Under the pieces are notes generated by a model. It was not told where the DNA came from, did not search any database, and was given only the letters and a program-made list of their open reading frames with translations. This document shows, one piece after another, positions 5,218 to 27,153 of a stretch of 41,039 nt of DNA. Location: positions 1 through 41,039 of the forward strand of contig JAGCNO010000089.1 of assembly GCA_017645905.1 (NCBI GenBank). Direction: 5' to 3'. The translations under genes were made by a program, and so were the position numbers. Each line of letters begins with the position of its first letter. Position 1 is the stretch's first letter. This stretch comes from Prevotella sp. (GTDB lineage Bacteria > Bacteroidota > Bacteroidia > Bacteroidales > Bacteroidaceae).

Positions 5218-5305
5218 GAAAAAGCCGTTCTTTCTATGGGAAAAAGCCGTTCTTTCTATGAGAAAAGATAGTCTTTTCTATGAGAAAAAGCCGTTCTTTC
5301 TCCGA
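5218..5305 (+). repeat. 22-bp tandem array A (4 units)
   Basis: Four contiguous units of exactly 22 bp start at 5218, 5240, 5262 and 5284. The core is GAAAAAGCCGTTCTTTC followed by TATGG, TATGA or TCCGA. The third unit differs: its centre is GAAAAGATAGTCTTTTC, an inverted repeat with 7-bp arms. Variant order is GCCG-TATGG, GCCG-TATGA, GATAGT-TATGA, GCCG-TCCGA. It lies between divergent genes, immediately upstream of the beta-helix gene, reading in the same direction. Confidence 0.9.
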
Positions 5306-5375
5306 GAGAGTCCGTTCATTATGCCAATAATTCTAAATTGTGGGTGCAAAATACGGATGTATCGTTTTTTTTGAC

Positions 5376-5384
5376 TAACTTTGC
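5376..5384 (+). promoter_or_regulatory. -7 promoter box of the beta-helix gene
   Basis: TAACTTTGC. It overlaps a possible TTG start at 5381, which argues for a downstream ATG (5402, 5408 or 5420). Confidence 0.55.
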
Positions 5385-5419
5385 AAGCAGTTTTCGATGC
5401 TATGCAAATGAGTAATCTG

Positions 5420-8400
5420 ATGAAGAGAAACATATTGATGTTAGTCGTTTGGGGTGTTGGTGGTTTAGTCGTTTGGGGTGCGGCACCAAAGAAGCCTAAG
5501 CCAGAGCTTTACGTGCCGATGGACTACAGCTACTGCGGGTATCGCGCCTCGGAGCGGGTGGTGCCCGATGTGAAAGTGGCGGCATTCCTGGAGTGGCAGG
5601 AAGGCGACTGCTCTCCGCTCATACAGCAAGCCATAGACGCTGTGTCGGGGCTGAAGGCTGATGTGAATGGTTATCGTGGAGCGGTGGTGCTTGGCGAGGG
5701 CGTGTTTCGGATAGACAAACCGCTGAGGATTACGGCCAGCGGCGTGGTGCTTCGGGGCGTGGGCCGTGACAAGACCCGGATTGTAAAGCATGGAGTCGAT
5801 AGGGGAGCGCTAATATATGTAGAAGGTCAATGGTCAAAGGTCGAAGGTCAGCGGTCGGAGGATACGCTTTTTATTGCAGCCGATTGCATCCCTGCCGGCA
5901 CAACTGTCGTTCCTTTCCCTTCATCTTCTCTCCTCCTTCCCTCCTCTTTCACTCCTCAGAAAGGAGAGCGTATCGACATCGTCCGACCTTGTACGCAGGA
6001 GTGGATTGACCATTTGGGTATGGGCGACTTTGGAGGAGGCTTAGACTACACGGGATGGAAGCCCACGGACATAGAGCTGCGATGGGACAGGACTGTTACT
6101 GACGTGCGGGGAGATACACTTTTCCTTGACGCTCCCATCACTACAGCCATTACCAAGGAGTTCGGCGGGGCGTATATTGTCCGAGGTCGGCATGAGGGAG
6201 AGATTATGGAGTGTGGTGTGGAGGACCTCACTTTGGAGAGTGCGGTGAACGACTGGAACCCAAAGGACGAGGACCATTGCTGGGATGGCATATCTATGAA
6301 TAATGTGCGCGACAGTTGGGTGAGACGAGTCAACTTCCGTCATTTTTCCGGGTCGGCGGTGAACTTGCAACGGCAGACGAGCCGCATAACTGTAGAGGAC
6401 TGCATCGCCCAGGAGCCAGTATCGGAGATTGGTGGCTGGCGTCGGCAGGTATTCCTTACCCGTGGCCAGCAGACGTTGTTCCAGCGTTGTGTCTCGCGGC
6501 AGGGGATACATGACTTCGCTGCAGACTACTGTGCCGCCGGGCCTAATGCCTTTGTGCAATGCGAGGGTGAGGAGTCGCTGGGCTTTAGCGGCAGCATCGG
6601 CTCTTGGGCACCGGGACTGCTTTTCGACATTGTGAATATCGACGGCCACGACCTGCGCTTTGCCAATCTGGAGCAGTTCCAGTTTGGTACGGGCTGGAAC
6701 ACGGCGAATTCGATGTTCTGGCAATGTACCGCCTCGACGATAGAGTGTTATTCGCCTGATACCCTCAACCGCTCGAGTGCTCACGGGTGCTGGGGAACGC
6801 TGACGGGCAACGGCAACTGGACCAGCAGCAACGATCATGTGCAGCCCCGTTCGCTATTCTATGACCAATTGGAAAAGAGGAAGCCCCACCCCCAACCCCT
6901 CCAGCGGGGTCGGGGATTACAAATCCCCTCCAGTGGGGAGTATATACCTCTGAGACAGGAAGACCTTTTGCAACCTTATATATTACCACGCTCTACCAAC
7001 GCTACCAGTTCGCCGACTGTCGAGGAGGCTATGGAGTTGGCGCAGGAGTCGCTTACCGAGCCGAGGATGACGATGGAGATGTGGATAGACAGCATAAGCA
7101 GACTCTCCTCCAACCCCTCCATGTCATGGAGGGGAGTATATACACCTTCTGCACAAAATAAGACTTCCGATGGTAAAGCAGAGAGCAAAAGTAACTACTC
7201 CCCTCCCTATGGGGAGGGACTGGGGGGAGGGTCTCTCTACTCCATCCCCTGGTGGAGCGGTCGGGTGAAGGACAACTTCTGCCAAAAGGAAGCCAGACCG
7301 GCCATTACGCGTTTCGTGCCTGGGCGTGAGGGAACAGGCTGGACAGACCGCATCGACTCAGTGGTGAGCTATCTAAAGAATAACGGCTATGGAGCCCTTG
7401 ACCACCACTACGGCCTGTGGTATGACCTGCGACGTACTGACCATGAGCGTGTGCGTCGTGCTGATGGTGATGTGTGGGCACCCTTCTATGAGCAGCCCTT
7501 TGCCCGTAGTGGACAGGGGACGGCCTGGGATGGGCTTTCGCGTTACGACCTTACAAAGCCGAATGAGTGGTACTGGAGCCGCCTTCGTGAGTTTGCCGAT
7601 AAGGCCGCTGAGGAGGGCATCATGCTCTTCAACCACCACTACTTCCAGCACAATATCCTCGAAGCTGGTGCACATTGGGTGGACAGCCCGTGGAGGCCGG
7701 TGAACAATATCAACAACACACCTTTTCCCGAACCAGTTCCCTTTGCTGGAGACAAGCGTATCTTCATGGCTGAGCAGTTCTATGACGAGACTAACACCAC
7801 ACTACGACCGCTTCACCGCCAGTACATCCGCATGTGCCTTGACCAGCTAAAAGACCAGCCAAACGTAGTGCATCTTATTAGCGCGGAGTATACTGGGCCG
7901 CTTCACTTCACCCGTTTCTGGTTAGAGACTATTGCTGAGTGGGAGCAGGAGACAGGCCGACACCCGCTCATCGCCCTTAGCTGTACTCGTGATGTGCAAG
8001 ACAGTCTCCTTAACGACCCCGAACTGAACAAGGTGGTAGACATCATCGACATCCGCTACTGGCACTACAACACGGAAGGTCTCTGGGCTCCAGAGGGTGG
8101 CAAGAACATGGCTCCTCGCCAATGGATGCGCAAGATGAAGGTGGGCAAGACGGGCTTTGATGAGGCTTATCGAGCCGTGCGAGAGATGCGCGACCGCTAT
8201 CCTGACAAGGCTGTGACGTTCTTTGCCCAACAATATCCTAACTACGGTTGGGCTATCCTTATGGCAGGCGGTTCGATGGCCAACGTCCCGCTTTACAATA
8301 AACAAGAAACAATAAACAATAAACTTCTCGGCGACATTGCGAAGATGCGGCCTATGGACGGAGAGGGCTGCGTGGCCCTTGGCAACTCCGAAGTGGGCTA

Positions 8401-8578
8401 CCTTGTCTACACCAAGGCATCAGACGTTTCGCTAAAGATAGAAGAAGGGAAATTCGCTATCTACGAAGTGGACGCCTTGTCTGGCGCAATCACCTTAAAG
8501 GAAAAGAAGAAGCTGCTGCAAGGTACGTTCACCCTTGGCGGCACCAGCCCTAACCGTGTCTTCTGGCTACGCAAGTAA
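5420..8578 (+). CDS. Large secreted beta-helix protein with DUF6298-like C-terminal region
   Basis: About 1052 aa with signal peptide [20 protein letters not shown]. Residues ~30-480 look like a right-handed parallel beta-helix of the pectate-lyase superfamily: an N-terminal cap with [19 protein letters not shown], then '[17 protein letters not shown]', and later rungs such as [20 protein letters not shown]. Residues ~620-980 form a second, probably alpha/beta domain ([60 protein letters not shown]) recalling DUF6298-type regions of Bacteroides polysaccharide enzymes. A polysaccharide substrate is inferred. The linker at ~490-625 and the signal peptide are built largely from palindromes and low-complexity words (6884-6940, 7114-7134, 7198-7233). 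Start chosen at 5420 for the signal peptide; ATGs at 5402 and 5408 are alternatives. The 3' end overlaps pepT by 12 nt, tail to tail. Confidence 0.72.
6884..6940. repeat. G/C palindrome inside the beta-helix coding region (1)
   Basis: Contains CCCCTCCAGCGGGG and then GGGGATT-ACA-AATCCCC (6912-6928, perfect 7-bp arms), followed by a third short fold. It encodes [19 protein letters not shown], a translation typical of mobile palindromic repeats rather than of a folded domain. Confidence 0.7.
7114..7134. repeat. G/C palindrome inside the beta-helix coding region (2)
   Basis: CCCCTCCATG (7114-7123) and CATGGAGGGG (7125-7134) form a perfect 10-bp inverted repeat around one base. Confidence 0.7.
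7198..7233. repeat. G/C palindrome inside the beta-helix coding region (3)
   Basis: CCCTCCC (7201-7207) pairs with GGGAGGG (7212-7218), followed by a further G-rich run to 7231. It encodes [12 protein letters not shown], a typical translated repeat. Confidence 0.65.
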
Positions 8579-9781
8579 CTGGCAAATCCCGACGATAACC
8601 CTTACGGCCTTCTCCATCGACTGAACGGGAATGAACTCGTAAGGGCCGTGGAAGTTGAGCCCTCCGGCAAAGATGTTCGGACAGGGCAGACCCTTGAATG
8701 ATAGCTGTGCGCCGTCGGTACCGCCACGTATGGGCTGCACTCTTGGCTCAACTCCTGCACGCCGCATGGCCTTGAGAGCCAGGTCGATAATATGTTGCTG
8801 GCCGGCAACAACCTCTTTCATATTATAATACTGGTCGTGCATCTCCACCGTGACGGTGCCCTCGCCGTAACGGCTGTTCATCTTTGTGGCAATATCTGCC
8901 ACGAGTTTCTTCCGTTTGTCGAAACGTTCCCGGTCGTGGTCACGGATGATGAGCGACAGGCAAGCCTCAGATGTGCTTCCATTAATAGATGTGACGTGGA
9001 AGAAGCCCTCATACCCTTCTGTCGTCTCAGGACGCTCATCGGCAGGCAGTTGCGTCTCAAACTCCATAGCCAGCAGGGAGGCGTTCACCATTTTCCCCTT
9101 CGCATAGCCGGGATGCACGCTGACACCCTGCACGGTTACCTTAGCCGAGGCAGCGTTAAAGTTCTCGTACTCAAGCTCCCCAACATCGCCGCCGTCCATC
9201 GTGTATGCCCATTGGCAGCCGAAACCCTCTACATCGAAATGGTCGGCCCCACGACCAATCTCCTCATCGGGCGTGAAGGCTATGCGCACCCTTCCGTGTT
9301 TCACTTCCGTGTGGTCACGCAGCCACGTCATAGCCTGCACTATCTCGGCGATACCAGCCTTATCGTCGGCACCAAGAAGGGTGTGGCCATCCGTGACGAT
9401 AAGGTCCTCTCCCTTATGTGCAAGCAGTTCAGGAAAGACCGATGGCGAGAGGACTATGCCCTCCGAGAGCATAATGTCGCCTCCGTCATAGTGCTCTACG
9501 ATGCGAGGTTTTACGCCTTTGCCTGAGCAGTCGGGGCTGGTGTCGTAGTGGGCGATGAAACCTATTGTCGGAAGGTCTTCGGTTACGTTTCCGGGCAATG
9601 TGGCATAGACATAGCCCTTATCGTCGAGCACCACGTCGTGAAGTCCTTCGCGCTTCAGTTCTTCTGCCAAATATTGGGCGAAGACCATCTGCCCGGGCGT
9701 GCTGGGAGTGCTCTGGCTCTCCTCCGACGACTGCGTGTCGAAGGCGGTATAATTCAGGAATCGTTCTGTAACGGTCATCAT
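8567..9781 (-). CDS. pepT: Peptidase T (tripeptide aminopeptidase)
   Basis: A 404-aa cytoplasmic zinc metallopeptidase of the M20 family that removes the N-terminal residue from tripeptides. Metal and catalytic motifs are intact: HYDTSPD (first zinc His and catalytic Asp), [11 protein letters not shown] (bridging Asp), [10 protein letters not shown] (catalytic Glu and zinc Glu), the MDGG segment, and [17 protein letters not shown] with the terminal zinc His in LNFHGPYEF. Length matches E. coli PepT (about 408). Start is ATG at 9781 or the adjacent ATG at 9778. It begins 3 nt after the RNA methyltransferase gene on the same strand and is probably co-transcribed with it. Confidence 0.95.
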
Positions 9782-9784
9782 CTT

Positions 9785-10582: not shown

Positions 10583-10584
10583 CG

Positions 10585-10694
10585 TGTTTGAACGGCTTTC
10601 TCTCTTAGAAAGAACGGCTTTTTCGCATAGAAAGAACGGCTTTTTCTCCCAGAAAGAACGGCTTTTTCTATGGGAAAGAACGGCTTTTTCTCCC
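10585..10694 (-). repeat. 22-bp tandem array B (about 5 units)
   Basis: Units of 22 bp start at 10607, 10629, 10651 and 10673 on the plus strand, with core GAAAGAACGGCTTTTTC (reverse complement of the array A core) and joints GCAT, TCCC, TATG and TCCC. A degenerate unit occupies 10585-10606. Array polarity is minus, matching transcription toward the RNA methyltransferase gene. The GATAGT variant seen in the other three arrays is absent here. Confidence 0.88.
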
Positions 10695-10701
10695 AGGGGC
10701 T

Positions 10702-11688: not shown

Positions 11689-11729
11689 AGTGTAGTTTTT
11701 TAGGTTAATGATTAATGAATAAGTATGGT

Positions 11730-14697: not shown

Positions 14698-17169
14698 TCA
14701 GAAAGGATACCCGATGGCCAGGTGCAGGGTGTGCATGTCCTTGAACCGTGGTATGTTGAAGTATCCGCTCTTTTCGGTCTTGTAAGGCACATGGAGGCCA
14801 AAGCCCCAGTCTATGCGCACGACAAGGAAGTCGAGGTCGTAGCGCAGACCAATGCCCGTGCCCGTGGCCAGGTCTTTAAAAAGGTTCTTGGGCTTGAATC
14901 CCATCTGGCCAAACGTGTCGTTCCATTCGTCGATGATTTGCTGCTCCTCCTCGTTTTCGGCCTCGACCGGCAGGGTCCAGTCGGTAGAATCCCACACGTT
15001 GCCCATGTCGAGGAAGAGGGCACCGTAGAGGTTCCCTACCAGTCGCCGACGGTACTCGAGGTTCATCACCAGCTTGAGGTCTCCGTTGCACATCACGTAT
15101 GCAAACTGGTTGCCGCCAATTGTGAAGCCTGGGAAGGCACCTGGGCCGATGCTCCTGACAGGGAAGGCTCGGATGCTGTTAGCGCCGCCCACATAGAACT
15201 TCTCGCTGAAGGGCGCGTCGGTGGTGTTGCCGTAGCTGTAGAGGTAGCCCGCGTTGATATGGCCTACGAGCTGCGAGTGCTGGTCGAGTGTCCAAGTCTT
15301 GGTAAGGTCGGTCTCCAGTCGGAGGAACTGGGCGTAGGCAGTCTTGAAGAGGGTCTTGTCCTTCTCGTTCCACCTTTTGCCTTTGGCCAGGAAGAAGAGC
15401 GACGTCAGGTTGCCGGCCTCCTCAATGCTTGTCTCCCATCGCAAGGGGTTGTGCTTGTTCTTAGGGCTGTTGTAGATGTAGGTGTAGCGCATCTTTGGGA
15501 TGAAGCGGTCGCTCATGTTGGCGGCAAGGAACATGTTGCTCGCAAGGAGGGAGTCGAGCAAGTGGGTGTGGCTGTTCTTAAACTGGTACTTCACCGTTAG
15601 GGGCGAGAACTCGTGCTGGCTGCTCTCCGATGTCTGCCATCGGTAAGTCCACTCGCCTGCCACGATGTGCATCTTGTAGTAGTTGGGACGGCGCACGATG
15701 TCGCTCGACACCTTTGCTATGGTCCATGGTGTGGAGTAAAAGCGGCGTGGGCGTCGGCTTCGGGCTGTCCGCTCCTCTGTAGAGAGCGAGTCTCTGCCAA
15801 CCTGTTGAGGGCGGCGACGTGGCCCGTCCTTGACGAAGGGGAACAGGATGCGGGGAAACTCTACGCTGGCGTCGATACCATACTGGTAGGAGTTGTTGCT
15901 GCTTCCCACTCCGCTCTGCCACTCGTAGGCACCGTGAAGGTTTATGTCCAGGCGCTCGCCTCCTCGGAAGGCATTTCGCCGCACCAGACCCACCTTCACC
16001 TCCGGGCCACGACGACCGATGGTGCGGTTCACGAAGTTAGTCTCCACGTAGAAGTCGTAAGGCTGGTCGAACACACAGTTAAGGGTCAGGTCGAGGGTGT
16101 CGGTACCAGGACGTGGCCTGAACTGGAAGTCGACCGACGAGAACACGCCCGTAGCGTTCACCTTCTGCATGGACTCCTGATAGTTGTCGTAGCTGAACAG
16201 GCTTCTCGGACGCAGCCTCATGTTGCGCAGCACCACCCTGGGACGCATGGGAGGCCGCTTACCGTTGTAGCGTATTTTCAGGAAGCTGCGGTCTGTGCTG
16301 TCGGTGAGCTGTTCGCGGAAAGAGCGCCGCATCTGCATCGTTATATTGCCGATGTACCAGGGGCGGAGAGCCTGCTCGGGAAGGGAGTCGGCCAGCTGCA
16401 GCCTCAGTCGGGCATGTTCTGCCACAGCAAAGGTGTCGGCCAGGAACGAGGCATAGCCCGGCTGGTAGTAGTAATAGCCGTTGTTGCGCATAAGCTGTGA
16501 CAACCTGGAACGCTCACCGTCGAGGTTGCCCACGCTGAAGGGTGTTCCCTGAGTGATGCGGGTCTCAGCACTCGTGGAGTCAATGAGATGGCGCATGGGA
16601 GAGGGGAAGTTCTCGTAGCTTAGGGTGTCGACGACAAAGAGCGGACCGGGGCTGACCGTGTAGCCTATCTTCATCTTCTTCGGGTTGCGCTGGGGCACTT
16701 CTTCATAGGTCACCTTGCCGTGCATATAGCCGTTCTTGCGCAGCACCGACTGAGCCACCGAGGCACGCAGGGCAGGGTTCACCTGACTCATCAGCACAGG
16801 CGGCTTGCCAAACGACTTCTTCATCCATTTCTTGAGCTTGCCGCTGCTGTCGCCTGCCCAGTTCCATATCCACAGACGGTAGGGGAAGGGCGTGCGGTAG
16901 TAACTGCTGCCGAAGAGCGCACCATTAGGAGCCGTAGCAAGGGCGGCCTCCACCTCCTCCTGAGTGGTGCTGAAATGGTCGCGATGCATCTCGCGAACCT
17001 CTCGCTGCTCGCCTTTCAGGGAATCAGTCAGCTCCTCGTAGTCCTGATATTCTATCTTCGTCAGGCCCACAAAGAGCTGGTCCCCGTCGGGAACGTTCTT
17101 CGTCGTAGAGCACGACAGAAGCACAACCGGCAGCAGGAGGCTAAGAAATAGTATGTATTTATTTGTCAT
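14698..17169 (-). CDS. tamL: TamL-type lipoprotein, BamA/TamA-family outer membrane protein
   Basis: About 823 aa. The signal peptide MTNKYILFLSLLLPVVLLSC ends in a lipobox cysteine followed by STTKNVPDGDQLFVG, the hallmark of the Bacteroidetes TamL lipoprotein. POTRA-like domains follow (about residues 25-380), and then an Omp85 beta-barrel with ERLDINLHGAYEW, YVGGANSIRAFPVRSIGPG, GTGIGLRYDLDFLVVRIDWG and the terminal strand LHLAIGYPF. It is thought to act with a TamB partner in outer-membrane biogenesis or lipid transport; tamB is not in this window. In-frame ATGs lie at 17187, 17175 and 17169. All overlap the end of the fic gene, suggesting translational coupling. The TonB receptor gene follows by 21 nt. 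Confidence 0.88.
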   Translation of the reverse strand: MTNKYILFLSLLLPVVLLSCSTTKNVPDGDQLFVGLTKIEYQDYEELTDSLKGEQREVREMHRDHFSTTQEEVEAALATAPNGALFGSSYYRTPFPYRLWIWNWAGDSSGKLKKWMKKSFGKPPVLMSQVNPALRASVAQSVLRKNGYMHGKVTYEEVPQRNPKKMKIGYTVSPGPLFVVDTLSYENFPSPMRHLIDSTSAETRITQGTPFSVGNLDGERSRLSQLMRNNGYYYYQPGYASFLADTFAVAEHARLRLQLADSLPEQALRPWYIGNITMQMRRSFREQLTDSTDRSFLKIRYNGKRPPMRPRVVLRNMRLRPRSLFSYDNYQESMQKVNATGVFSSVDFQFRPRPGTDTLDLTLNCVFDQPYDFYVETNFVNRTIGRRGPEVKVGLVRRNAFRGGERLDINLHGAYEWQSGVGSSNNSYQYGIDASVEFPRILFPFVKDGPRRRPQQVGRDSLSTEERTARSRRPRRFYSTPWTIAKVSSDIVRRPNYYKMHIVAGEWTYRWQTSESSQHEFSPLTVKYQFKNSHTHLLDSLLASNMFLAANMSDRFIPKMRYTYIYNSPKNKHNPLRWETSIEEAGNLTSLFFLAKGKRWNEKDKTLFKTAYAQFLRLETDLTKTWTLDQHSQLVGHINAGYLYSYGNTTDAPFSEKFYVGGANSIRAFPVRSIGPGAFPGFTIGGNQFAYVMCNGDLKLVMNLEYRRRLVGNLYGALFLDMGNVWDSTDWTLPVEAENEEEQQIIDEWNDTFGQMGFKPKNLFKDLATGTGIGLRYDLDFLVVRIDWGFGLHVPYKTEKSGYFNIPRFKDMHTLHLAIGYPF

Positions 17170-18328
17170 TGTCATTATACATCGCAAGTCCTTTTACCGT
17201 CAACAGATACTTCTGGCGAGGATGGTGGGGAGAGTCGGGGTAGAGCGGTCGGACGAAACCTTCAGCCAGCGAAGGATTCAGCGAATAATCCAGAAAATTC
17301 TCTCTGTCCTTTAAGCCGACTTTTTCCATTATCTTTTTTACTGAAAGTTGTTCTTCTCCCAACGCCATCACAAGCCTTAAAATGTTTTTGTTGTCAATAT
17401 GAATTAAACTTGTCGGGGTACTTGTCGGGGTACTTGTCGGGGTACTTGTTCGGTACTTGTTCGGTGCTGCCAGATTTGGTTGCACCCGCCATTCTTCCGT
17501 TGGATGTATGTGTAGATAGCGGTTGCGCAAGTCCCAATGCTCGCCTAACAGCAAGTTGCAGAAGAAACGCTCAAGAAAGACTGGTGTGTAGTCAATACCT
17601 TTGCGGACATTCTTATAGTTGGCACGTACCAAAGCGTTGCGGAAATACCAAGAATGTTTGGCATAGAGGTCGTTCTCAACATCAAATCCTATGGAGCGCA
17701 GATACTGAATGACAAATACGGCCGTAGTACGCGTGTTGCCTTCACCAAAAGCATGTATCTGCCAAAGGCCAGACGTGAATTTAGCGATATGAGCGACCAT
17801 CTCGCCCGTACTCAGACCTTTATAGCTGAAGTTGCGTTCCTGCTCTATGTCATAGTCAAGAGCCCGCCGTAAGTCTTCCCAATTCAGATAGTTCACCGTG
17901 TCGCCCTCTAACACCCATTCCCGTTTTGTGATATCATACTTGCGCAGTTCTCCGGCATGTTTCATTACGCCGTTGAAGATGCGGCGATGCATGGATATGT
18001 ACCCCTTTGTCGAGAAGTCGCAGGTCTTGACAGCCAGAATGCCTTTGATGTTCTTCGAAACCTTGTCGGCCTCTTCCGTGTCATCGTCGTCAGCCTCGCG
18101 TGAGGTCTTACTCTCGTAATAGCTGTCGAGCAGACGGCCCACCTCGTCGATGCTGATTTCGCCCTCAATGTTTCGGCGTGCCAGTTCGTTCAGGTATGCC
18201 GACGTCTTGAGCCCGTCCACCGCCTGAAGCCCAATGGCCGTGCTCCAGGCGTAGGCGGCCTCACGTTTCCCCGGTTCGCCTTGACGGATATACTCGTCGA
18301 AGTTTATATATAGCTCTTTCCCGTCCAT
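17159..18328 (-). CDS. Fic-domain protein
   Basis: A 389-aa Fic protein expected to transfer AMP or another nucleotide group to a target protein. The catalytic loop HAFGEGNTR lies at residues 192-200, with His192 as general base. An N-terminal helical region at about 45-60 (LNELARRNIEGEISIDE) resembles the VbhA-type inhibitory segment: the Glu-Gly is kept, but the usual Ser/Thr four residues earlier is Arg. A repeat-encoded linker of STPT units at ~290-305 leads to a C-terminal winged-helix-like tail (LSVKKIMEKVGLKDRENFLD). The coding DNA of the linker mixes 12-bp and 11-bp tandem repeats (17409-17466). The gene starts 3 nt after the dockerin-like mini-ORF and overlaps tamL downstream. The target is unknown. 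Confidence 0.87.
   Translation of the reverse strand: MDGKELYINFDEYIRQGEPGKREAAYAWSTAIGLQAVDGLKTSAYLNELARRNIEGEISIDEVGRLLDSYYESKTSREADDDDTEEADKVSKNIKGILAVKTCDFSTKGYISMHRRIFNGVMKHAGELRKYDITKREWVLEGDTVNYLNWEDLRRALDYDIEQERNFSYKGLSTGEMVAHIAKFTSGLWQIHAFGEGNTRTTAVFVIQYLRSIGFDVENDLYAKHSWYFRNALVRANYKNVRKGIDYTPVFLERFFCNLLLGEHWDLRNRYLHIHPTEEWRVQPNLAAPNKYRTSTPTSTPTSTPTSLIHIDNKNILRLVMALGEEQLSVKKIMEKVGLKDRENFLDYSLNPSLAEGFVRPLYPDSPHHPRQKYLLTVKGLAMYNDNDK
17409..17466. repeat. Mixed 12-bp / 11-bp tandem repeat inside fic
   Basis: Three exact copies of CTTGTCGGGGTA (17409-17444) adjoin two 11-bp copies of the form CTTGTTCGGTA/G (17445-17466). Gain or loss of a 12-bp unit keeps frame; an 11-bp unit change shifts the frame of the last ~85 codons. 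Confidence 0.8.
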
Positions 18329-18331
18329 GTC

Positions 18332-18547
18332 TTACTGCCCTGCCATGATGTCGATGATATTGGCAACGTCAGCCACGTCAACCGTGCCGTCTATGTTCAG
18401 GTCTCCCCATACAGCACCTTCTCCGGGATCCACCTTACTGAATCCTTGGTACACGGGGGTGCCGTTACGCCAGCGGATGGTGGCGGTAGCCACGTCGCTC
18501 GCACCAATGATTTTATAGACAGTCTCTTTATAGTCCTTTGGGTTCAT
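18332..18547 (-). CDS. Solitary dockerin-like mini-protein, possible gene remnant
   Basis: A 71-aa frame. Its C-terminal half, GDLNIDGTVDVADVANIIDI, is a calcium-loop repeat of dockerin type (D-x-N-x-D-G-x-x-D-x-x-D). Dockerin-like modules normally end large secreted Prevotella proteins, whereas this frame has no signal peptide and only one repeat. It may therefore be the 3' end of a lost gene that gained a start codon, or an intact small protein. It ends 3 nt before fic, which would allow co-transcription from the -7 box at 18669-18677. Confidence 0.5.
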   Translation of the reverse strand: MNPKDYKETVYKIIGASDVATATIRWRNGTPVYQGFSKVDPGEGAVWGDLNIDGTVDVADVANIIDIMAGQ

Positions 18548-18668
18548 CTCTGCAAATTATTATTGAATCATTCGCGGTCATTCGTGAACATTCGTGTGAA
18601 AGAAATCTTAAAGATAACTTTACCACGTTATTTCTTTACGGTCACTATGTTTGTCATAGTTTCGGGAT

Positions 18669-18677
18669 GCAAAAGTA
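18669..18677 (-). promoter_or_regulatory. Candidate -7 box for the dockerin/fic/tamL/TonB run
   Basis: TACTTTTGC on the minus strand, 121 nt upstream of the mini-ORF at 18547. A TTTG lies upstream (18692-18695), but the spacing is shorter than the usual -33/-7 distance, so this is a weaker call. Confidence 0.4.
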
Positions 18678-18743
18678 CAAATAAAAATCGACAAAGAAGA
18701 AAAATACGGAAAAAATATCATTTCCAAGCAGCGAAACTGTACT

Positions 18744-18886
18744 GTGCGCAGCCGCTCCCCTCCCATATTGGGGAGGGAAGGGGTGGGGTTATGTGTCTAT
18801 ATGAGGGCTATATTATTTTGACTGCCAAAATATTACTGACCCCACCCCTAACCCCTCCCCTACAAGGGAGGGGAGCGGCTGCGCAC
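18744..18886. repeat. 143-bp long inverted-repeat element (MITE-like)
   Basis: The outer arms 18744-18764 and 18866-18886 are perfect 21-bp inverted repeats (GTGCGCAGCCGCTCCC at the left end). A second inner pair, GGGGTGGGG (18780-18788) and CCCCACCCC (18840-18848), extends the fold, leaving a central segment of about 50 nt rich in A and T. The size and terminal repeats fit a non-autonomous palindromic element; no target duplication was identified. Confidence 0.75.
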
Positions 18887-19015
18887 GGATAGCCTGTCCC
18901 CAAGTCATGATGATAAAAAATATTTACAACTACCCCGTCATACGTTGAAAATTTGGAGCGGGGACGGTCTGGGATTCAACGGAGCGAGTTATGAGAAGGG
19001 ATATGGGCGACATGG

Positions 19016-19097
19016 AGAAAAAACGGCTTTTTCTCATAGAAAGAACTATCTTTTCCCATAGAAAGAACTGCTTTTTCTCATAGAAAGAACCGTCCTG
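19016..19097 (-). repeat. 22-bp tandem array C (3.7 units)
   Basis: Units start at 19016, 19038, 19060 and 19082 (partial). Read on the minus strand the order is GCAG-TATGG, GATAGT-TATGA, GCCG-CTCC. This is the same variant order as the last three units of arrays A and D. Confidence 0.88.
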
Positions 19098-19271
19098 TTT
19101 CCAGGTCATCTACGTTCTGATTTTGCTTGTCAATAAATCGGATAGTGTTCATATACAGGATGTTACAAAAATGCTGTCTATGAAATGCAGACGTTTTGAG
19201 GGTTGAACAGTCATCACAAAAAGCTCATTCTGGAGGTGAAAGGGCGTTAAATTGCCGTTTCTTTGTGTTAA

Positions 19272-19303
19272 TTCCTGCACAAATCGGCGGTTTTGTGCAG
19301 GAA
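19272..19303. repeat. Perfect 12-bp stem hairpin
   Basis: TTCCTGCACAAA (19272-19283) and TTTGTGCAGGAA (19292-19303) pair around an 8-nt loop. There is no following T-run, so it is not a classical terminator; it could be part of an untranslated RNA or a protein-binding site. Confidence 0.6.
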
Positions 19304-19473
19304 AAAGAGGGCAGAAATTTGCACAAAAGTGCCGTCGTGTGCATGTTTGCGTTCTGGTTGAAGGGTTTTCCTGATGCGTTTTATTGTCAGTTTTCTTTAC
19401 ATTTATTCTAACCAGAATAAATCATGATAATTGCAAGACCGATGCGAATGTCTTTTTCTTTAACATGAATGAC

Positions 19474-19532
19474 CATGAATGACCACGAATTATTAAAAAA
19501 TTAAATTAATGACAAATTCGTGGTCATTCATG
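19474..19532. repeat. Hairpin with perfect 18-bp arms
   Basis: CATGAATGACCACGAATT (19474-19491) and AATTCGTGGTCATTCATG (19515-19532) flank an A/T-rich 23-nt loop. Related words (GGTCATTCGTGAACATTCGTG) occur at 18566-18600. Confidence 0.75.
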
Positions 19533-19660
19533 ATTATTCGTGTGAAAAGACAAAATCCATGAATATTTCAGGTTACAAGTATTCCTGTATTCAGGTAAGC
19601 CTTTTTCGCCCTAATTTCGTTAATCTTCCCAAAATGCTTCGCGGTTACATGCTTTTTTAG

Positions 19661-20639: not shown

Positions 20640-20649
20640 GGGGTGAGTA

Positions 20650-20717: not shown

Positions 20718-20726
20718 TCCCCATCA

Positions 20727-21137: not shown

Positions 21138-21166
21138 GTCTAAGATTGAAGATTGAAAATTGAGGA

Positions 21167-21625: not shown

Positions 21626-21666
21626 ATCTCTTAGTTGGTGGTTTGGTTGTCTAATTCCACATACGT

Positions 21667-24195
21667 TCAAAGTTCTATGACGCGGAGGGAATAAGGCGGG
21701 AGGAGGGTAGGAGTGGAGGTTTCTATCTCCTCGGCCTTGGCTTTCTGGTCGTCGATGGCACCTGTGAATTGCTGGCACTTTACGGTAGCGGGAATTTGGA
21801 TTCCCTCTACGGTAATGTGGAGGGTCGTCGGCAGGGCGTTGATGAGCTTCAGGTATCGCTTGCCGGTCTTGCTGTCGCGCACAAGGCTGGCACCGAGACG
21901 GCGGGTTAATTCTGAATTCTGTATTTGTAATTCGGAATTAACCCAACGGTCGCCACCATAGACGGAGAACAGCCGCTGAATCTCGTAGGCTGGGGTGGTG
22001 CGGATGCTGGTATTCGAGAAGTAGATCATGTCGGGATTCCAGTTTGAATGGCCGTCCTTGCAGAGCATGGGAGCATAGGAGGTCATCTCCACGATGTCGC
22101 CGTTGCGCTCAATGTCGGTCAGGTAGAGGGCTTCGGCAAGGGCTGTCTCCACGTGGGGCAGCTTTACATGTGTCGAGGCCGCCCACTCTCCAAGGTAGAC
22201 TTTCGTGGCCGATTCCCCTCTCGGATAATTGTCGTAGTAATCACGATGGTTAATAAACCAGCCCGTCGACTCGTAATAGTGCTCATCGGTCATGTATTGC
22301 AAGCCCGGATTGCGGCGGCAGAGGTCCCAGCCCTCGATGTAGTCGGCCGAAGGAGTATGGAACGGCCCTACGGTACCACATATCTTTATCTCCGGGTGAC
22401 GCTCGCGGATGGCACGGCAAATCATCTCGTAACGTTCCTCGAATACGGTAGAGATAATGTCTTCATTTCCAATGCCTATGTACTTTAGGTTAAAGGGTTG
22501 CGGATGGCCGGCAGCAGCACGCTTGGCTGCCCATTCGTTGGTGGCGGGGTCGCCGTTAGCCCATTCTATGAGATGGCAAAGCTCGTCAACGTAGGCAGGC
22601 ATTTCGGCCATTGGGATTCCTCCTTGCTGACCGCCTATGCCCTTGGCGTTTAGGGCCGAGTTCTGGCAGGGAACGCCGGCAGCAAGAACAGGAAGCGGCT
22701 CGGCACCGATGTCCTCACAGAACTGGAAATACTCAAAGAAACCCAGGCCACGTGTCTGGTGGTAGCCCCAGATGTTGAAGTCGGGCTTGCGCTCCTGCAG
22801 CGGGCCTATGGTGTAATTCCAATGGTAAATGTTCTCCAAGCCTTGCCCGTGACTCATGCAGCCGCCTGGGAAGCGAATGAACTTCGGCTTGAGGTCGGCG
22901 ATGACCTGTGCGAGGTCTTTACGCAGCCCGTTCTTCCGGCCCTTGAACGTCTCCTGCGGGAAGAGCGAAATCATGTCGACGCCAACACGTGCCACCCGTT
23001 TCGGAATGATGGCCAGCCGAGCCTTCGCGTCGGAGGCTTTGGCAGTAAGTACGGTAGCATACTGCTGCCAGTCGCCGGCTCGGGTGTTCAGTTTGCCTTG
23101 GGCCAGCACGGCACCATCCTGTCCCACCAGCTGAATGACGAAGTCCTGCTTCTGGCCGCCCGCAAAGACATACATGGAGAAGTCGTATCGTTTGCCCTTC
23201 TCGACCACGATGCCGTCCCAGCCTTCGTTCCAAAGCGTGTCCTGCAATAGCACGGCATAGTGAGGATTATTGGGGTGCAGAGGGTGCCCGGTGTCAATCT
23301 CTATGGGGTGAGACGAGTGCCAGGCCGTAGTGGCATCCCATTCACGGCGGTCTCTCGGCGAGTATTCAAAGTCGCGGTTCTGCACCAGCTCGGCATAGAG
23401 ACCTCCGTCGGCGGCATAACTGATGTCTTCGAAGAAGATGCCGATGAGCTTGTCGCTGATGGGCTTCTCCTTCGTGGTGTCGATAGTCAGCTTGGCCTCT
23501 AAGGTCTTCGGCAGGCCGGTGAGGTTCCTAGCGTCGTCGTGCATCCGCTCGCTACTCAGACGCCCATCGCGGGCAATCTTCTCAAAGTGCTGGCGGATGG
23601 CGGCAAGCTCGGAGGTGCTCACCTCAAACATCTGACCGTCATGTCCTTTGCCGTTCAAGACCAGATGATGCTTATATTCCGATAGAGGTATTACGGCTCT
23701 TTCGCTCTCCTGGACTTCCCTTGCCGAAACATCTTTGGTGAAATGCCGGAAGTCGTAGCTGGCGGTGACGAGGCGTAGTCCCTGTTCCGACTCATAGGTA
23801 ACCTCGAAGCCCTTATCTGTGGGACGCACCACAGGCTTCAGGCACTTGCGAGTGCTCACGATAGGGTAGTCCTGCGGCCGCCAGTTCACCAGGTTGCGGC
23901 TATAGGAAGCAGCAAACTGCGGCGAGCGGTCGTTCACCTGGAACACTAACCGCCACGTGCCGTCGCTGGCCCTGCATACCGACGGGACGTACATGCGTTT
24001 CTCGGCGCCCCACGTCCCGTAGTCGCTGGAGCACAACTGTCCCAGGTCTTTCCAACCTTCGCCTTCCTGTACGGCAATACGTAGCCCGCCGCGCTCATCG
24101 GGCGAATAGATAAACACTTTGTCACTCTGCCCCTTGGCCGTAACAGCCATTACCAGCACCAAGATGGCCGTCAGTAGTCTTGATATTAGTCTCAT
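21667..24195 (-). CDS. GH51 alpha-L-arabinofuranosidase
   Basis: A secreted or periplasmic 842-aa glycosidase removing arabinofuranosyl side chains from plant polysaccharides such as arabinan or arabinoxylan. The signal peptide MRLISRLLTAILVLVMAVTA is followed by a GH43-like propeller fragment (about 25-200; TWGAEKRMYVPSVCRASDG). Then comes a carbohydrate-binding-like segment and a TIM barrel with the acid/base Glu578 in YIGIGNEDI and the nucleophile Glu670 in VYLGEWAAS. RFPGGCMSHGQG is a further GH51 hallmark. Near the end of the barrel, about residues 750-764 (VNSELQIQNSELTRR) are encoded by a palindrome (21903-21944). Two earlier ATGs, at 24216 and 24204, would add 7 or 3 residues before the signal peptide. 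Likely head of an operon with coaD and ybeY. Confidence 0.92.
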   Translation of the reverse strand: MRLISRLLTAILVLVMAVTAKGQSDKVFIYSPDERGGLRIAVQEGEGWKDLGQLCSSDYGTWGAEKRMYVPSVCRASDGTWRLVFQVNDRSPQFAASYSRNLVNWRPQDYPIVSTRKCLKPVVRPTDKGFEVTYESEQGLRLVTASYDFRHFTKDVSAREVQESERAVIPLSEYKHHLVLNGKGHDGQMFEVSTSELAAIRQHFEKIARDGRLSSERMHDDARNLTGLPKTLEAKLTIDTTKEKPISDKLIGIFFEDISYAADGGLYAELVQNRDFEYSPRDRREWDATTAWHSSHPIEIDTGHPLHPNNPHYAVLLQDTLWNEGWDGIVVEKGKRYDFSMYVFAGGQKQDFVIQLVGQDGAVLAQGKLNTRAGDWQQYATVLTAKASDAKARLAIIPKRVARVGVDMISLFPQETFKGRKNGLRKDLAQVIADLKPKFIRFPGGCMSHGQGLENIYHWNYTIGPLQERKPDFNIWGYHQTRGLGFFEYFQFCEDIGAEPLPVLAAGVPCQNSALNAKGIGGQQGGIPMAEMPAYVDELCHLIEWANGDPATNEWAAKRAAAGHPQPFNLKYIGIGNEDIISTVFEERYEMICRAIRERHPEIKICGTVGPFHTPSADYIEGWDLCRRNPGLQYMTDEHYYESTGWFINHRDYYDNYPRGESATKVYLGEWAASTHVKLPHVETALAEALYLTDIERNGDIVEMTSYAPMLCKDGHSNWNPDMIYFSNTSIRTTPAYEIQRLFSVYGGDRWVNSELQIQNSELTRRLGASLVRDSKTGKRYLKLINALPTTLHITVEGIQIPATVKCQQFTGAIDDQKAKAEEIETSTPTLLPPYSLRVIEL
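21903..21944. repeat. Palindrome inside the GH51 gene
   Basis: GGGTTAATTCTGAATT (21903-21918) pairs with AATTCGGAATTAACCC (21929-21944) with one G-T mismatch and a 10-nt loop. It is in frame. Confidence 0.75.
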
Positions 24196-24249
24196 GTTAA
24201 TCATTATTGAATCCACCTTAAAGTATTCACAATAATTATATTTAGTGGT

Positions 24250-24258
24250 GCAAAGTTA
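24250..24258 (-). promoter_or_regulatory. -7 promoter box of the GH51-coaD-ybeY run
   Basis: TAACTTTGC on the minus strand, about 55 nt upstream of the ATG at 24195. Confidence 0.55.
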
Positions 24259-24445
24259 CATAATAAAAAGGAAATGAGCAAATATTTTACTGGAAAACTG
24301 CTCTATGTCTTTTCCTGTATTTAGCACATAAAAGCCGTTCGGCATTTTAACGCCCAGACCTCGGTCAGAGAGTTTTTTTATACTCAAATAGGCAGTATTG
24401 TAGCCGAAATAGGGGCTCGTAATTGTAATTAAACAGGTGTTTTTG

Positions 24446-26806
24446 TTACAAAAGCAGAAGTCCTATCTGGCTCACGAGGGCACTAATGACCCAGGCGAGG
24501 ACGGTGGTGTAGACGGCGGCTGTGGCAGCCCAGCGCCAGGAGCCGGTCTCGTTCTTGATGGCCGCGATGGTGGCTATGCAGGGGAAATAGATGAGGATGA
24601 AGAGCAGGAAACAGTAGGCCGTCAGCGGGGTGAGGTCGTTGGCGAGGGGTATTAGGTGTTGGGTGCTGGGCGTTTCAAGCTCTTCTGCGTCCTCTGTTCC
24701 GCTATAGAGCACACCGATGGTGGAGGCCACGATTTCCTTGGCTCCTACGCCCGCTATGAGGCTCACGTCGAGCTTCCAGTTGAAGCCCTGAGGCGTGAAG
24801 ACGGGCTCGATGGTCTTGCCCATACGACCGATGTAGGACTGCTCCTGCTGTTCTTGTAGCGTCAGACTATCATTGTGCGGGAAATATCCTAAGGCCCAGA
24901 CGATTATCGATGCTACGAGGATGATGCCGCCCATCTTCTTCAGATACTCCTTTCCCTTCTCCCAGGTGTGGCGTCCGATGGCTTTTGGCGTGGGCCAGCG
25001 GTAGGGCGGCAGCTCCATCACGAAAGGCGTATCCTCGCCTCGGATGACGAACTTGGAGAGCACATTGCTGACCACGACGGAGAGCAGTATGCCGACGGCG
25101 TAGAGCGACATCATCACCCATGAGCGCCATTGGGCGGCAAAGAACGTGCCCGTAATCATGATGTAGACCGGCAGGCGGGCCGAGCACGACATGAAGGGCA
25201 GGATGAGCATCGTGATGAGGCGTGAGCGGCGGCTCTCGATGGTACGCGTGGCCATGATGGCGGGCACGTTGCAGCCGAAGCCCATCACCAGCGGGATGAA
25301 CGACTTGCCGTGCAGCCCCATCTTGTGCATCAGGCGGTCCATGATGAAGGCCGCACGGGCCATGTAGCCCGAGTCCTCCATGAGCGAGATGAAGAAGTAG
25401 AGGATGAGTATCTGCGGCAGGAACACGATGACCGAGCCGACGCCTCCAATGACGCCATCGACAAGCATGGAGCGCAGGGGACCTCCGGGCAGGGTCTGCT
25501 CCAGCCAACCGCCCAGCCAGTCGACAGCGGCCTGAATCCAGTCCATCGGGTACTGGCCGAGGGCGAAGGTGGTCTGGAACATGACGAAGAGGATGGCGAA
25601 GAAGATGGGGAAGCCCACGAAGCGGTTTGACAGGACGTTGTCTATGATGTGGGTCATGCGGTAGGTGTCCGTCTTCGTGCCTGTGACGTAGCCGGCCTCG
25701 GTGAGGGCACCATTGACGAAGCCATACTTCGCGTCCATGATGGCCGTCTCGGCATCGTCGCCAGTCTCCTCCAGCACACGGGCGGCGGCACGGTCACGCA
25801 CCTCAAACAGCTTGTCGTTTCCCACTACAAGGCGCTCCACGCTGCTGTCGCCCTCAAGCAGTTTGATGGCAAGATAGCGGGTTGAATAGCGCTTGTGAAT
25901 ATTCTCGTCGGGTTTGAGGTACTTCTGCAGATGGGCGATGCCGTCTTCCAGCTCGTGTCCGTAGTTGATGTGCAGGTGGCGGGCGATGTGGCTTGTACCC
26001 TCATAGACCTGAATGACGGCACGGAAAAGGTCTTTCACGCCCATGCCGTTCTTGAACGACGTAGGCACCATCGGTATGCCGAACAGCGTGGAGAGCGTGT
26101 CAATGTCTAAATGGTCGCCACGCTTCTCAAACTCGTCGTACATGTTGAGGGCACAGACCACACGAAGGTCCATGTCCATGAGTTGCGTAGTGAGGTAGAG
26201 GTTGCGCTCCAGGTTCGATGCGTCGACGACGTTGATGACCACATCGGGCATCTGGTCGGTCAGGTAGCGTCGCACGTAAAGCTCCTCGGGCGAGTAGCAT
26301 GAGAGGGAGTAAGTGCCGGGCAGGTCGATGAGGTTGAACTCGTAGCCGAACATCTCTGCGTGGGCCTCGCTGGCATCGACGGTCACGCCTGAGTAGTTGC
26401 CCACATGGCCGTGGGCACCGCTGGCGAAGTTGAAGAGCGAGGTCTTGCCGCAGTTGGGGTTGCCGATGAGGGCCACATTGATGGTTCGGCGCTGGCGCAA
26501 GGCCTCGTGGCGCAGGTAGTCATCGGGATGGTCGGTAGCGTCGAAGGTAACGGCCGCACAAGCCGTCTCCTGCTGCCACGACTGCTCCGACACCACCTCG
26601 ATAAGCTCAGCCTCCTGGCGGCGGAGGCTCACCTCGTAGCCCATAAGCCGGTATTTTACAGGGTCTTGCAGAGGCGCGTTGAGCAGCACCTCCACGAGCT
26701 TTCCCTTCACAAAGCCCATCTCAATGATGCGCTTGCGGAAGCCGCCATGTCCGTGAACCTTCACGATGACACCATGCTCGCCAGTCTTCAATTCCGATAG
26801 TTTCAT
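24446..26806 (-). CDS. feoB: Fused FeoA-FeoB ferrous iron transporter
   Basis: A 786-aa inner-membrane Fe(II) importer. Residues 1-73 are a FeoA SH3-like domain (KVHGHGGFRKRIIEMGFVKG). After a linker, the cytosolic GTPase domain shows G1 GNPNCGKTS at 115-123, G2 NYSGVTVD and G3 DLPGTYSLS. The membrane part holds two Gate motifs with conserved cysteines (IPLVMGFGCNVPAIMATRTI and LPFMSCSARLPVYIM) and the terminal helices. Fusion of FeoA to FeoB is common in Bacteroidetes. A short word (24651-24673) encodes TQHLIPLA just before the last helices. The start at 26806 follows a -7 box (26816-26824) by only 9 nt, so the mRNA is nearly leaderless. Confidence 0.95.
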   Translation of the reverse strand: MKLSELKTGEHGVIVKVHGHGGFRKRIIEMGFVKGKLVEVLLNAPLQDPVKYRLMGYEVSLRRQEAELIEVVSEQSWQQETACAAVTFDATDHPDDYLRHEALRQRRTINVALIGNPNCGKTSLFNFASGAHGHVGNYSGVTVDASEAHAEMFGYEFNLIDLPGTYSLSCYSPEELYVRRYLTDQMPDVVINVVDASNLERNLYLTTQLMDMDLRVVCALNMYDEFEKRGDHLDIDTLSTLFGIPMVPTSFKNGMGVKDLFRAVIQVYEGTSHIARHLHINYGHELEDGIAHLQKYLKPDENIHKRYSTRYLAIKLLEGDSSVERLVVGNDKLFEVRDRAAARVLEETGDDAETAIMDAKYGFVNGALTEAGYVTGTKTDTYRMTHIIDNVLSNRFVGFPIFFAILFVMFQTTFALGQYPMDWIQAAVDWLGGWLEQTLPGGPLRSMLVDGVIGGVGSVIVFLPQILILYFFISLMEDSGYMARAAFIMDRLMHKMGLHGKSFIPLVMGFGCNVPAIMATRTIESRRSRLITMLILPFMSCSARLPVYIMITGTFFAAQWRSWVMMSLYAVGILLSVVVSNVLSKFVIRGEDTPFVMELPPYRWPTPKAIGRHTWEKGKEYLKKMGGIILVASIIVWALGYFPHNDSLTLQEQQEQSYIGRMGKTIEPVFTPQGFNWKLDVSLIAGVGAKEIVASTIGVLYSGTEDAEELETPSTQHLIPLANDLTPLTAYCFLLFILIYFPCIATIAAIKNETGSWRWAATAAVYTTVLAWVISALVSQIGLLLL

Positions 26807-26815
26807 AAACCGATT

Positions 26816-26824
26816 GCAAAGGTA
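26816..26824 (-). promoter_or_regulatory. -7 promoter box of feoAB
   Basis: TACCTTTGC on the minus strand, ending 9 nt before the feoAB ATG. No Fur box was recognised by eye. Confidence 0.6.
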
Positions 26825-26906
26825 GTAAATAATTTGTGAAACTACCGAAAAAGAACACACTTTTTTGCATAATACCTAAAAAAGATGATACTTAACGGCG
26901 GGCGTA

Positions 26907-27030
26907 GTCACACAGATTCCACAGATAGCCACAGATTATCAAGCGGTTGCGTAGTCCATCTGATGATACGACCTCACGGATTGGCTTGCAGTAACTATAA
27001 ATCTGTGAACATCTGTGTCATCTGTGTGAC
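26907..27030. repeat. 124-bp inverted-repeat element
   Basis: Terminal arms GTCACACAGAT (26907-26917) and ATCTGTGTGAC (27020-27030) are perfect. Each end also carries extra CACAGAT / ATCTGTG copies (26920-26936, 27000-27017). Located in the divergent feoAB-metK gap, directly before array D. Confidence 0.65.
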
Positions 27031-27065
27031 AAATAGATGATTAGTGTGGCGTAATCGCTGTCTGA

Positions 27066-27153
27066 GAAAAAGCCGTTCTTTCTATGCGAATAAGCCGTTC
27101 TTTCTATGAGAAAAGATAGTCTTTTCTATGAGAAAAAGCCGTTCTTTCTCCGA
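27066..27153 (+). repeat. 22-bp tandem array D (4 units)
   Basis: Units start at 27066, 27088, 27110 and 27132. Units 3 and 4 are identical to units 3 and 4 of array A, and unit 1 differs from it only in its last base. Polarity is toward metK. Confidence 0.9.

Follow-up and report, generated by a model that had tools for sequence, protein, structure and literature searches.

A 22-bp register kept by arrays of differing dyad repeats in some Prevotella genomes suggests a DNA-binding or mobile-element system not yet recognised

The nearest published relative that we found of the arrays described here is BrickBuilt of Porphyromonas gingivalis, a species of the same bacterial order as the present Prevotella sp. 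genome. In the available part of its description, BrickBuilt is an intergenic element of direct tandem 23-nt repeats, 1 to 22.8 in number, with a leader and a tail and predicted long stem-loops; 19 copies with IS5-like terminal repeats are reported, from P. gingivalis and P. gulae only, and P. gingivalis W83 also has 22-nt tandem repeats (PMC4596501). Compared with what that part of the report contains, the present arrays are alike in being short, tandem and intergenic and, in the chromosome G374 of the same genus, in having a leader and a tail. They differ in period (22 bp against 23 bp), in number (roughly 300 arrays in the own genome, an estimate from core matches and sampled arrays, against 19 copies) and in terminal repeats, which are IS5-like there and of which none are shown here. 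Also, BrickBuilt belongs to two species, whereas the unit sequence here changes by species and the 22-bp register is fixed.

REP sequences and BIMEs, as the available text describes them, are extragenic palindromes tagged by GTAG or CGTC, with partners separated by 1-5 bp in some dimers but in most by 20-100 bp (PMC3733652). Set beside that text, the arrays are similar in their extragenic palindromic units of high copy number and of species- or strain-specific type, in some genomes mixed with other repeats, and the BIME feature of different module types in one element is found here in the palindrome AATTCTCNNGAGAATT together with core units. They differ by their exact 22-bp register, and they have neither a consistent GTAG/CGTC tag nor an association with RAYT. 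The iterons of plasmid origins are tandem sites of about 17 bp, spaced by about 22 bp and bound by one protein. Their spacing and site length are like those of the arrays, but iterons belong to a replication origin and lack dyad symmetry, whereas the arrays are chromosomal, number in the hundreds and change in sequence. A CRISPR array was ruled out, the linkers being of 5 bp and not unique spacers of about repeat length, and so was a known RNA family, with 0 Rfam matches at the gathering score within the window. Literature on such Prevotella arrays was not among the matches listed, in which subscription papers are only partly covered.

Arrays of the window and of the genome

The window is the whole stretch of DNA analysed, 41,039 nucleotides. 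A preliminary description had reported four arrays in it, whose coordinates and 22-bp period were verified. Array A (5218..5305, + strand) has four units, GAAAAAGCCGTTCTTTC twice, GAAAAGATAGTCTTTTC and GAAAAAGCCGTTCTTTC, with linkers tatgg, tatga and tatga and the end tccga. Array B (10585..10694, - strand) has five units in the gap that separates the ROK kinase gene from the SpoU methylase gene, array C (19016..19097, - strand) four, GAAAAGATAGTTCTTTC among them, and array D (27066..27153, + strand) four, between feoB and metK. The fifth, array E (33755..33835, no strand assigned), is absent from the earlier description; it reads AATTCTCTCGAGAATT, tacca, GAAAAAGCCGTTTAAAG, tccat, GAAAGAACGGCTTAAAC, ccaga, AATTCTCTCGAGAATT and represents a second type of palindrome that keeps the 22-bp register.

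It had been claimed that arrays A and D share two consecutive units and that array C repeats their order on the minus strand. Both were seen: the consecutive 22-mers gaaaagatagtcttttctatga and gaaaaagccgttctttctccga are common to A and D, and C on its minus strand has a tatgg unit, a GATAGT-type unit and a CTCC-ending unit in this order. The variant order holds for A, C and D, but not as a rule. The series of GATAGT unit, tatga, core unit and TCC marks a sub-family of 5 arrays, three of them A, C and D, among the 67 found in 690,888 sampled bases with the window included, a density biased upward as the own-genome stretches were drawn from contigs with known matches (those of G374 were evenly spaced). 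A genome-wide search for the unit, proposed in the preliminary description and allowing up to 2 mismatches, found the core 470 times on the forward and 507 times on the reverse strand of the 3.40-Mb genome; the reversed pattern turned up 5 and 3 times, so the repeats are not due to chance. Arrays are mostly small, with 3-5 units in 30 of 39.

Spacing and symmetry of the units

The unit is an imperfect inverted repeat of 17 bp with a 5-bp linker. Among same-strand neighbours up to 60 bp apart in the own sample, 177 of 185 are at exactly 22 bp, 7 at 44 and 1 at 43, and opposite-strand neighbours are offset by 0, 22, 43 or 44, so that units flip strand in register. The chromosome G374 has 60 neighbours at 22 bp with 37 distinct linkers, and any other distance occurs at most 6 times. 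Linkers vary freely, with 67 distinct 5-mers in 184 own 22-bp steps, and over 172 own 22-mers each position of the 17-mer carries 0.92-2.0 bits of information and each linker position 0.1-1.05 bits. The palindrome AATTCTCNNGAGAATT, which is unlike the core, is in register with core units in 12 of 12 cases, or 13 of 14 when up to 2 mismatches are allowed. When near-perfect palindromes were taken whatever their sequence, neighbouring unrelated pairs showed no enrichment at 22 (0 in the own, G374 and G337 sets and 1 in each of the other two, identity limit 9), so the mosaic claim is carried by the single motif AATTCTCNNGAGAATT.

Perfect palindromy as a universal property of the unit was rejected, since the palindrome is incomplete in many units. 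In the GAAW-N9-TTTC families the inner pairs are complementary in 0.47, 0.46, 0.23 and 0.64 of cases, compared with 0.34, 0.20, 0.27 and 0.34 in 64 single matches elsewhere; judged by eye, paired linkers within an array are not complementary in general. A/T tracts recur at 11 bp more strongly in arrays than in intergenic controls (2.62 against 1.43 in the own genome, 2.36 against 1.31 in G374, 1.88 against 1.23 in G337), a signal that is in part a harmonic of the 22-bp repeat itself. At 10.5 bp the G337 arrays are no better than the control (1.53 against 1.46).

Scans blind to unit sequence gave the same period. For periods 20-26, at slightly stricter thresholds than in the other scans, 20 clusters at 22 and 2 at 21 were found in own sample 1, and 20 at 22 and 0 at 21 in G374. 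Own sample 2 (periods 18-30) gave 32 at 22 and 3 at 21, and the relative G337 (periods 20-24) 12 and 3, with 0 at any other period throughout. Shuffled own and G374 sequence gave 0 clusters and 305 kb of other families 0 arrays. Among 42 same-genus genomes, chosen by two unit patterns, the loci hold many different units; the dominant unit differs among many of these genomes and is common to some, and several unrelated units occur side by side in a single genome. Even G085, which is poor in both patterns, holds another unit family. On viral contigs the own core as a tandem pair was found 0 times, and a general AAAG-N5-CTTT train in 3 stretches on 2 contigs. What is conserved is distance and not sequence, as different units in many genomes, and two palindrome types within one array, obey 22 bp. 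This exact rhythm despite a repeat that differs by species suggests that a DNA-binding or mobile-element system has so far gone unrecognised.

Sites, ends and gene context

Five sites of the own genome (G000) could be compared with G337, where 1 array is kept, 1 has another unit and 3 are empty. At locus D, a 4-unit in-register array (GAGAAAGCCGTTTTGTC, GAGAAAGCCGTTTTCTC, GAAAAAGCCGTTTTCTC, GAGAAAGCCGTTCTTTC) is at the same place, and array D is kept across 13-15% gene divergence, which makes a host function possible and counts against a mobile-element reading. In the gap of locus B, G337 has an array of TTCCCACCGTGGGAA, a unit that differs from that of G000, and G096 has this gene pair without an array. 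Array C is within a segment of about 17.2-19.6 kb that is missing from that site in G337. The three empty sites may reflect either insertion or loss, and the flanks of the three filled/empty pairs are too diverged for reading junctions or target-site duplication.

In 41 of 67 arrays the 5-mer after the last unit starts with TC, compared with 27 of 206 internal linkers (Fisher P = 7e-14). The G374 array is embedded in a repeat some 215 bp long, which has a leader and a tail; the best 40 of 155 candidates match it at 76-100%, 35 of these 40 over more than 200 bases, and the element ends share TATRTTTATGCA in direct orientation. The biased end and this repeat suggest dispersed element copies with definite ends, and the proposal of dispersed copies of one single element survives in a weaker form. 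The conserved leader and tail are seen in G374; in the own genome 50 of 134 array flanks are like another array's flank, partly through unit-like and module sequence, so that a fixed leader and tail are not evident there. An autonomous copy of the G374 element was not among the matches listed, and a search for its homologues on plasmids gave no match. For the best 40 of 155 G374 copies, chromosomal gaps look random (CV 0.98), and orientation by replichore is 12/5 against 11/12, which is not significant (P = 0.20).

Gene context follows intergenic length. Own arrays between genes oriented --, -+, ++ and +- number 22, 20, 12 and 5 against 17.9, 18.9, 14.6 and 7.7 expected (P = 0.49), with genes called by a simple purpose-written caller and two of the three arrays scored "inside" genes overlapping a gene end; G374 behaves likewise (P = 0.73). 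The preliminary description saw the polarity of each array as matching a gene further on, but only 17 of 34 arrays between co-directional genes point with them. Arrays are thus indifferent to gene orientation, the outcome that this description had named as refuting its regulatory idea, and the 5' regulatory or RNA role suggested there fails.

Proposed mechanism and competing explanations

We hold with about even confidence that the arrays are interspersed, non-coding mosaic DNA elements of the BIME/MITE kind, whose register is set by a putative DNA-binding protein. They would be short trains, mostly of 3-5 dyad-symmetric 17-bp sites with 5-bp linkers, acting at the DNA level. Spaced by 22 bp, close to two turns of the helix, the sites would lie on one helix face, and a putative dimeric protein, which would have to occupy neighbouring sites together, would set the register. 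This protein could be a mobilising enzyme belonging to the element or else a nucleoid protein, and spread and homogenisation within a genome may swap one unit sequence for another. The register held across changing linkers, unit orientation and unit sequence supports this element reading, as do the kept, replaced and empty sites between two species, the 11-bp recurrence of A/T tracts and the neutral gene context. Against it count the partial palindromy, the lack of general mosaic enrichment, the G337 10.5-bp phasing at control level, the partly harmonic nature of the 11-bp signal and the empty sites, which may reflect loss. Neither a partner protein nor a target-site duplication nor an autonomous copy came to light, and whole-array duplication alone could preserve spacing. 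More tentatively, hundreds of two-turn-phased dyad arrays and a putative co-changing DNA-binding protein may form an address system that is rewritten by species while the register and some sites persist. If so, it would be a bacterial counterpart to fast-evolving pairs of satellites and binding proteins. Such arrays would bear on how bacterial intergenic DNA comes to be colonised or organised in a major genus of the rumen and gut.

It seems rather unlikely that the arrays are fixed nucleoid-architecture sites, bound by a co-evolving host protein and serving the host by A/T-tract bending or wrapping or by domain organisation. The two-turn register with 11-bp A/T phasing, the neutral gene context, array D in G337 and the B gap, which keeps an array with another unit, would all fit such sites, but 3 of 5 testable G000 arrays are without counterpart in G337, the spacing of the best 40 of 155 G374 copies looks random, unrelated units coexist in one genome, and arrays also occur on contigs classed as viral. 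Plain minisatellites, in which slippage amplifies 22-mers and the rhythm is a by-product, are unlikely. Their linkers would be near-identical, which 67 distinct 5-mers in 184 steps are not, and units flip strand in register, AATTCTCNNGAGAATT keeps the same register, and different sequences keep the same 22 in several genomes, although the 22-mers are in direct tandem and the repeat number of BrickBuilt varies from 1 to 22.8 in the available part of its report (PMC4596501).

The usual account of interspersed palindromic repeats invokes one transposase family or transcript ends. REP elements moved by RAYT (Y1) transposases are likewise short, extragenic, species-specific inverted repeats in hundreds of copies, but they are a very improbable explanation here. 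Among 30 array-rich genomes 14 have PF01797 (RAYT, Y1; E<=0.001), and among 30 array-poor ones 16 do (P = 0.80); the two classes were set by two unit patterns only, which leaves room for further families in the poor class, as in G085. It was found in none of the array-rich G374, G402, G102, G342 and G012. By raw count, 12 of the 172 own 22-mers and 10 of the 60 from G374 have GTAG or CGTC on one strand or the other, within the linker or the 2 bp next to it. It is also quite improbable that the arrays act in transcripts as terminator, 3' stabiliser or 5' leader. Divergent gaps hold 20 and convergent gaps 5 of 59 own arrays, as length predicts, and there is neither an orientation bias nor an Rfam match in the window. 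Folding is weak in arrays A-D and in that of G085 (z -0.9 to -2.4), and an RNA hairpin as a universal array property was rejected. In favour of a role in transcripts, array E and the folded arrays of G374, G337 and G274 fold strongly (z -6.2 to -7.7), and some arrays, at locus B and on viral contig L329, begin directly after a stop codon.

The arrays and their fixed register

Sequence inspection confirmed the four arrays of the preliminary description, A (5218-5305, plus strand), B (10585-10694, minus), C (19016-19097, minus) and D (27066-27153, plus), at the places and in the form claimed. They are built from 17-bp imperfect inverted repeats, here called units, joined by 5-bp linkers. In the sample taken from the same genome (G000), the commonest unit, GAAAAAGCCGTTCTTTC, makes up 104 of 260 units and the next, GAATAAGCCGTTCTTTC, 65 of 260. 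A fifth array, E (33755-33835), is symmetric, with two core-like units flanked on both sides by AATTCTCTCGAGAATT. Across the 3,401,236 bases of G000, in 181 contigs, the core (the commonest unit family) is matched with at most two mismatches 470 times forward and 507 times reverse, and the reversed pattern 5 and 3 times. We counted 67 arrays in 690,888 sampled bases, window included, a density biased upward because the stretches were taken from contigs already known to have matches; array E, with units too divergent to be recognised this way, is not included. From the core-match total and the sampled count, we estimate about 300 arrays in the whole genome.

What the arrays conserve is their spacing. 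Of 185 pairs of same-strand neighbours no more than 60 bp apart in G000, 177 lie at exactly 22 bp, seven at 44 and one at 43, and opposite-strand units are offset by 0, 22, 43 or 44 bp. The linkers are nearly free: 184 steps of 22 bp hold 67 distinct 5-mers, and over 172 22-mers of this genome linker positions carry 0.1-1.05 bits against 0.92-2.0 bits for unit positions. The same period appears when unit sequence is ignored. Scanning for triplets of 17-bp inverted repeats at a given period, we found in a first G000 sample 20 clusters at 22 bp, two at 21 and none at 20 or 23-26; in a second, 32 at 22, three at 21 and none at the remaining periods of 18-30. G374, a complete chromosome from the same genus, had 20 clusters at 22 and none at 20, 21 or 23-26, and shuffled G000 and G374 sequence gave no clusters. 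G337, the nearest species to G000 among those met in this analysis, gave 12 at 22, three at 21 and none at 20, 23 and 24.

Different palindromes can share the register. AATTCTCNNGAGAATT, a palindrome distinct from the core, is found at 12 places in the G000 sample, always in register with a core unit (21.5 bp centre to centre in 11 cases, 43.5 bp in one), and with up to two mismatches 13 of 14 occurrences are in register. When near-perfect palindromes of any sequence were tested in general for unrelated neighbours, 22 bp was not an enriched distance. Since the core, with six of eight pairs, could not pass the near-perfect filter, AATTCTCNNGAGAATT is the one source for the mosaic claim.

In all three genomes tested, A/T tracts show an 11-bp periodicity, about one helical turn, to which a harmonic of the 22-bp repeat contributes. 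Phasing at 10.5 bp in G337 was not above control (1.53 vs. 1.46).

Unit sequences and their palindromy

Units of the form GAAW-N9-TTTC at 22 bp were matched in 23 of the 398 genomes of the genus, among them G000, and their cores differ from genome to genome. The reversed pattern, intended as a control, proved to represent a related class of units, WAAG-N5-CTTT with the same 22-bp period. At least 10 forward matches of either class occur in 38 of the 398 genomes, again with G000. The second class, rerun on 20 such genomes, gave 21-391 forward matches each, and its own reverse gave 0. Among loci of 42 genomes, where single-match genomes may include chance matches, CAAAAGTTCAACTTTTG-type units were found, for example, in G374, AAAGGTAACCTTT in G010 and GAAATCACCGTAATTTC in G386; AAAGCATAGCTTT is common to G063 and G372, and G265 has an GAAAGAGCCGTTCTTTC-type unit close to the G000 core. 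Six unit types occur in G337 within 227 kb. Samples of 40 kb from each of ten genomes, the majority with few matches to either pattern, yielded one array at 18 bp and two at 22 (G085 and G274), the latter two with yet other units. Outside the family, 20 genomes of the same order gave no array at periods 18-30 in a total of 305 kb, a thin sample per genome.

Palindromy of the units is partial. In a dyad test of class 1 units from 22 genomes, whose outer four pairs were fixed by the search pattern, the inner pairs were complementary at 0.47, 0.46, 0.23 and 0.64, against 0.34, 0.20, 0.27 and 0.34 in 64 single matches elsewhere. Near-perfect dyads exist (TTCCCACCGTGGGAA, AAAAGTTCAACTTTT); other units mainly share the dyad ends. 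RNA folding is weak for arrays A-D (z -0.9 to -2.4) and the G085 array (z -1.0). It is strong for array E and the folded arrays of G337, G374 and G274 (z -6.2 to -7.7), because their dyad units can pair with each other.

Turnover and gene context

The arrays turn over between species. At site D (feoB/metK), a 4-unit array stands in register in both G000 and G337; the G337 units are GAGAAAGCCGTTTTGTC, GAGAAAGCCGTTTTCTC, GAAAAAGCCGTTTTCTC and GAGAAAGCCGTTCTTTC, so that in one of them both arms have changed together. In G337, the gap between ROK and SpoU (site B) is filled by a 4-unit array of TTCCCACCGTGGGAA type; in G096 the two genes occur as a pair with no array between them. For three other G000 arrays (L271:10799, L283:1216, L283:11867) the corresponding G337 gap holds no array; both genomes have arrays at two of five testable sites. 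Synteny breaks at L271:15794 and L283:18051, where no array adjoins the left flank in G337. The segment carrying array C and a Fic-domain gene (about 17159-19630 of the window) is absent from the matching G337 site; the flanks there are separated by about 105 bp, and a portion of the fic gene has a match elsewhere in that genome. In G346 (L191), just past the ROK stop codon, an array-like train of GCAGTCCCTTTTTT runs about 21 bp apart by eye, and the following gene differs.

An uncultured Prevotella MAG (L070, L071) has the G000 unit family, GATAGT type included, and the remaining 1.8 kb of L071 has no match in G000 among the best 40 of 355 candidates. This is a hint, not proof, of spread among distant species. 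Such arrays are also present on two contigs of a viral collection. One of these contigs (IMGVR_UViG_2558860931_000002) has two AAAGCATAGCTTT arrays, at L329:6507 and L330:6883, one beginning at a stop codon; L329 was judged by eye to be phage-like from a long tape-measure-like ORF.

Gene context is neutral. In G000, 59 of 67 arrays have a called gene on either side (-- 22, -+ 20, ++ 12, +- 5), five are at edges, and three run into called genes, in two cases just at the gene end. This context tracks intergenic length (P = 0.49; in G374, P = 0.73). It had been proposed that polarity matches a gene further on and that the arrays have a 5' regulatory or RNA role. Between co-directional genes, 17 of 34 arrays point with the genes, so neither proposal held; together with the neutral context, this argues against any 5' or 3' role common to the arrays.

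Element ends, proposed mechanism and known kinds

The arrays combine a fixed register with free linkers, differing units, neutral context and turnover. A putative protein dimer on each unit, with contacts between neighbours, could set the register, and spread and homogenisation may change unit sequence. RAYT transposases, the Y1 transposases of REP elements, were rejected as a partner, as they do not track the arrays. The nearest known system found is BrickBuilt, a MITE/minisatellite of Porphyromonas gingivalis, whose description also mentions 22-nt tandem repeats in strain W83 (PMC4596501). REP/BIME elements share their style with the present arrays but not the tag, enzyme or register (PMC3733652). 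None of the papers listed in the literature searches describes such arrays in Prevotella.

Some arrays have recurrent ends. The 5-mer past the last unit starts with TC in 41 of 67 G000 arrays, against 27 of 206 internal linkers. The order GATAGT unit, tatga, core unit, TCC recurs in 5 of 67 (A, C, D, L276:3866 and L277:9454). Flanks resemble another array's flank in 50 of 134 cases, in part due to stretches resembling units and to a module around ATTACGCAAGCGTCTCC. In G374, the array is embedded in a repeat some 215 bp long that has a leader and a tail; all 40 scored candidates (the best 40 of 155) match at 76-100%, and for 35 the match exceeds 200 bases. The alignment also shows two palindromes in its tail that keep a 22-bp spacing of their own, shifted by half a period relative to the units.

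Several minor observations were made. Among the 40 scored G374 copies, eight of nine are plus at 0.87-1.36 Mb and eight of nine minus at 1.45-1.90 Mb, with the switch where GC skew changes sign; orientation of these copies across the whole chromosome is not significant. CTTTTGTAGTACAAGAC-type arrays at 22 bp stand at G337 contig ends (L236:12657, L237:8808), as if breaking the assembly. A second repeated module, ATTACGCAAGCGTCTCCTTCGTCGCCGAGCG with its variant CCCTTCGGGATGCC, lies within or adjoining G000 arrays, apparently interrupting a unit (L064:13650, L065:8188, L068:16761, L274:4579 and others). Finally, positions 32774-32927 of the window hold a tandem repeat with periods of 15, 27, 57 and 84 bp within ORF 31025-33055.
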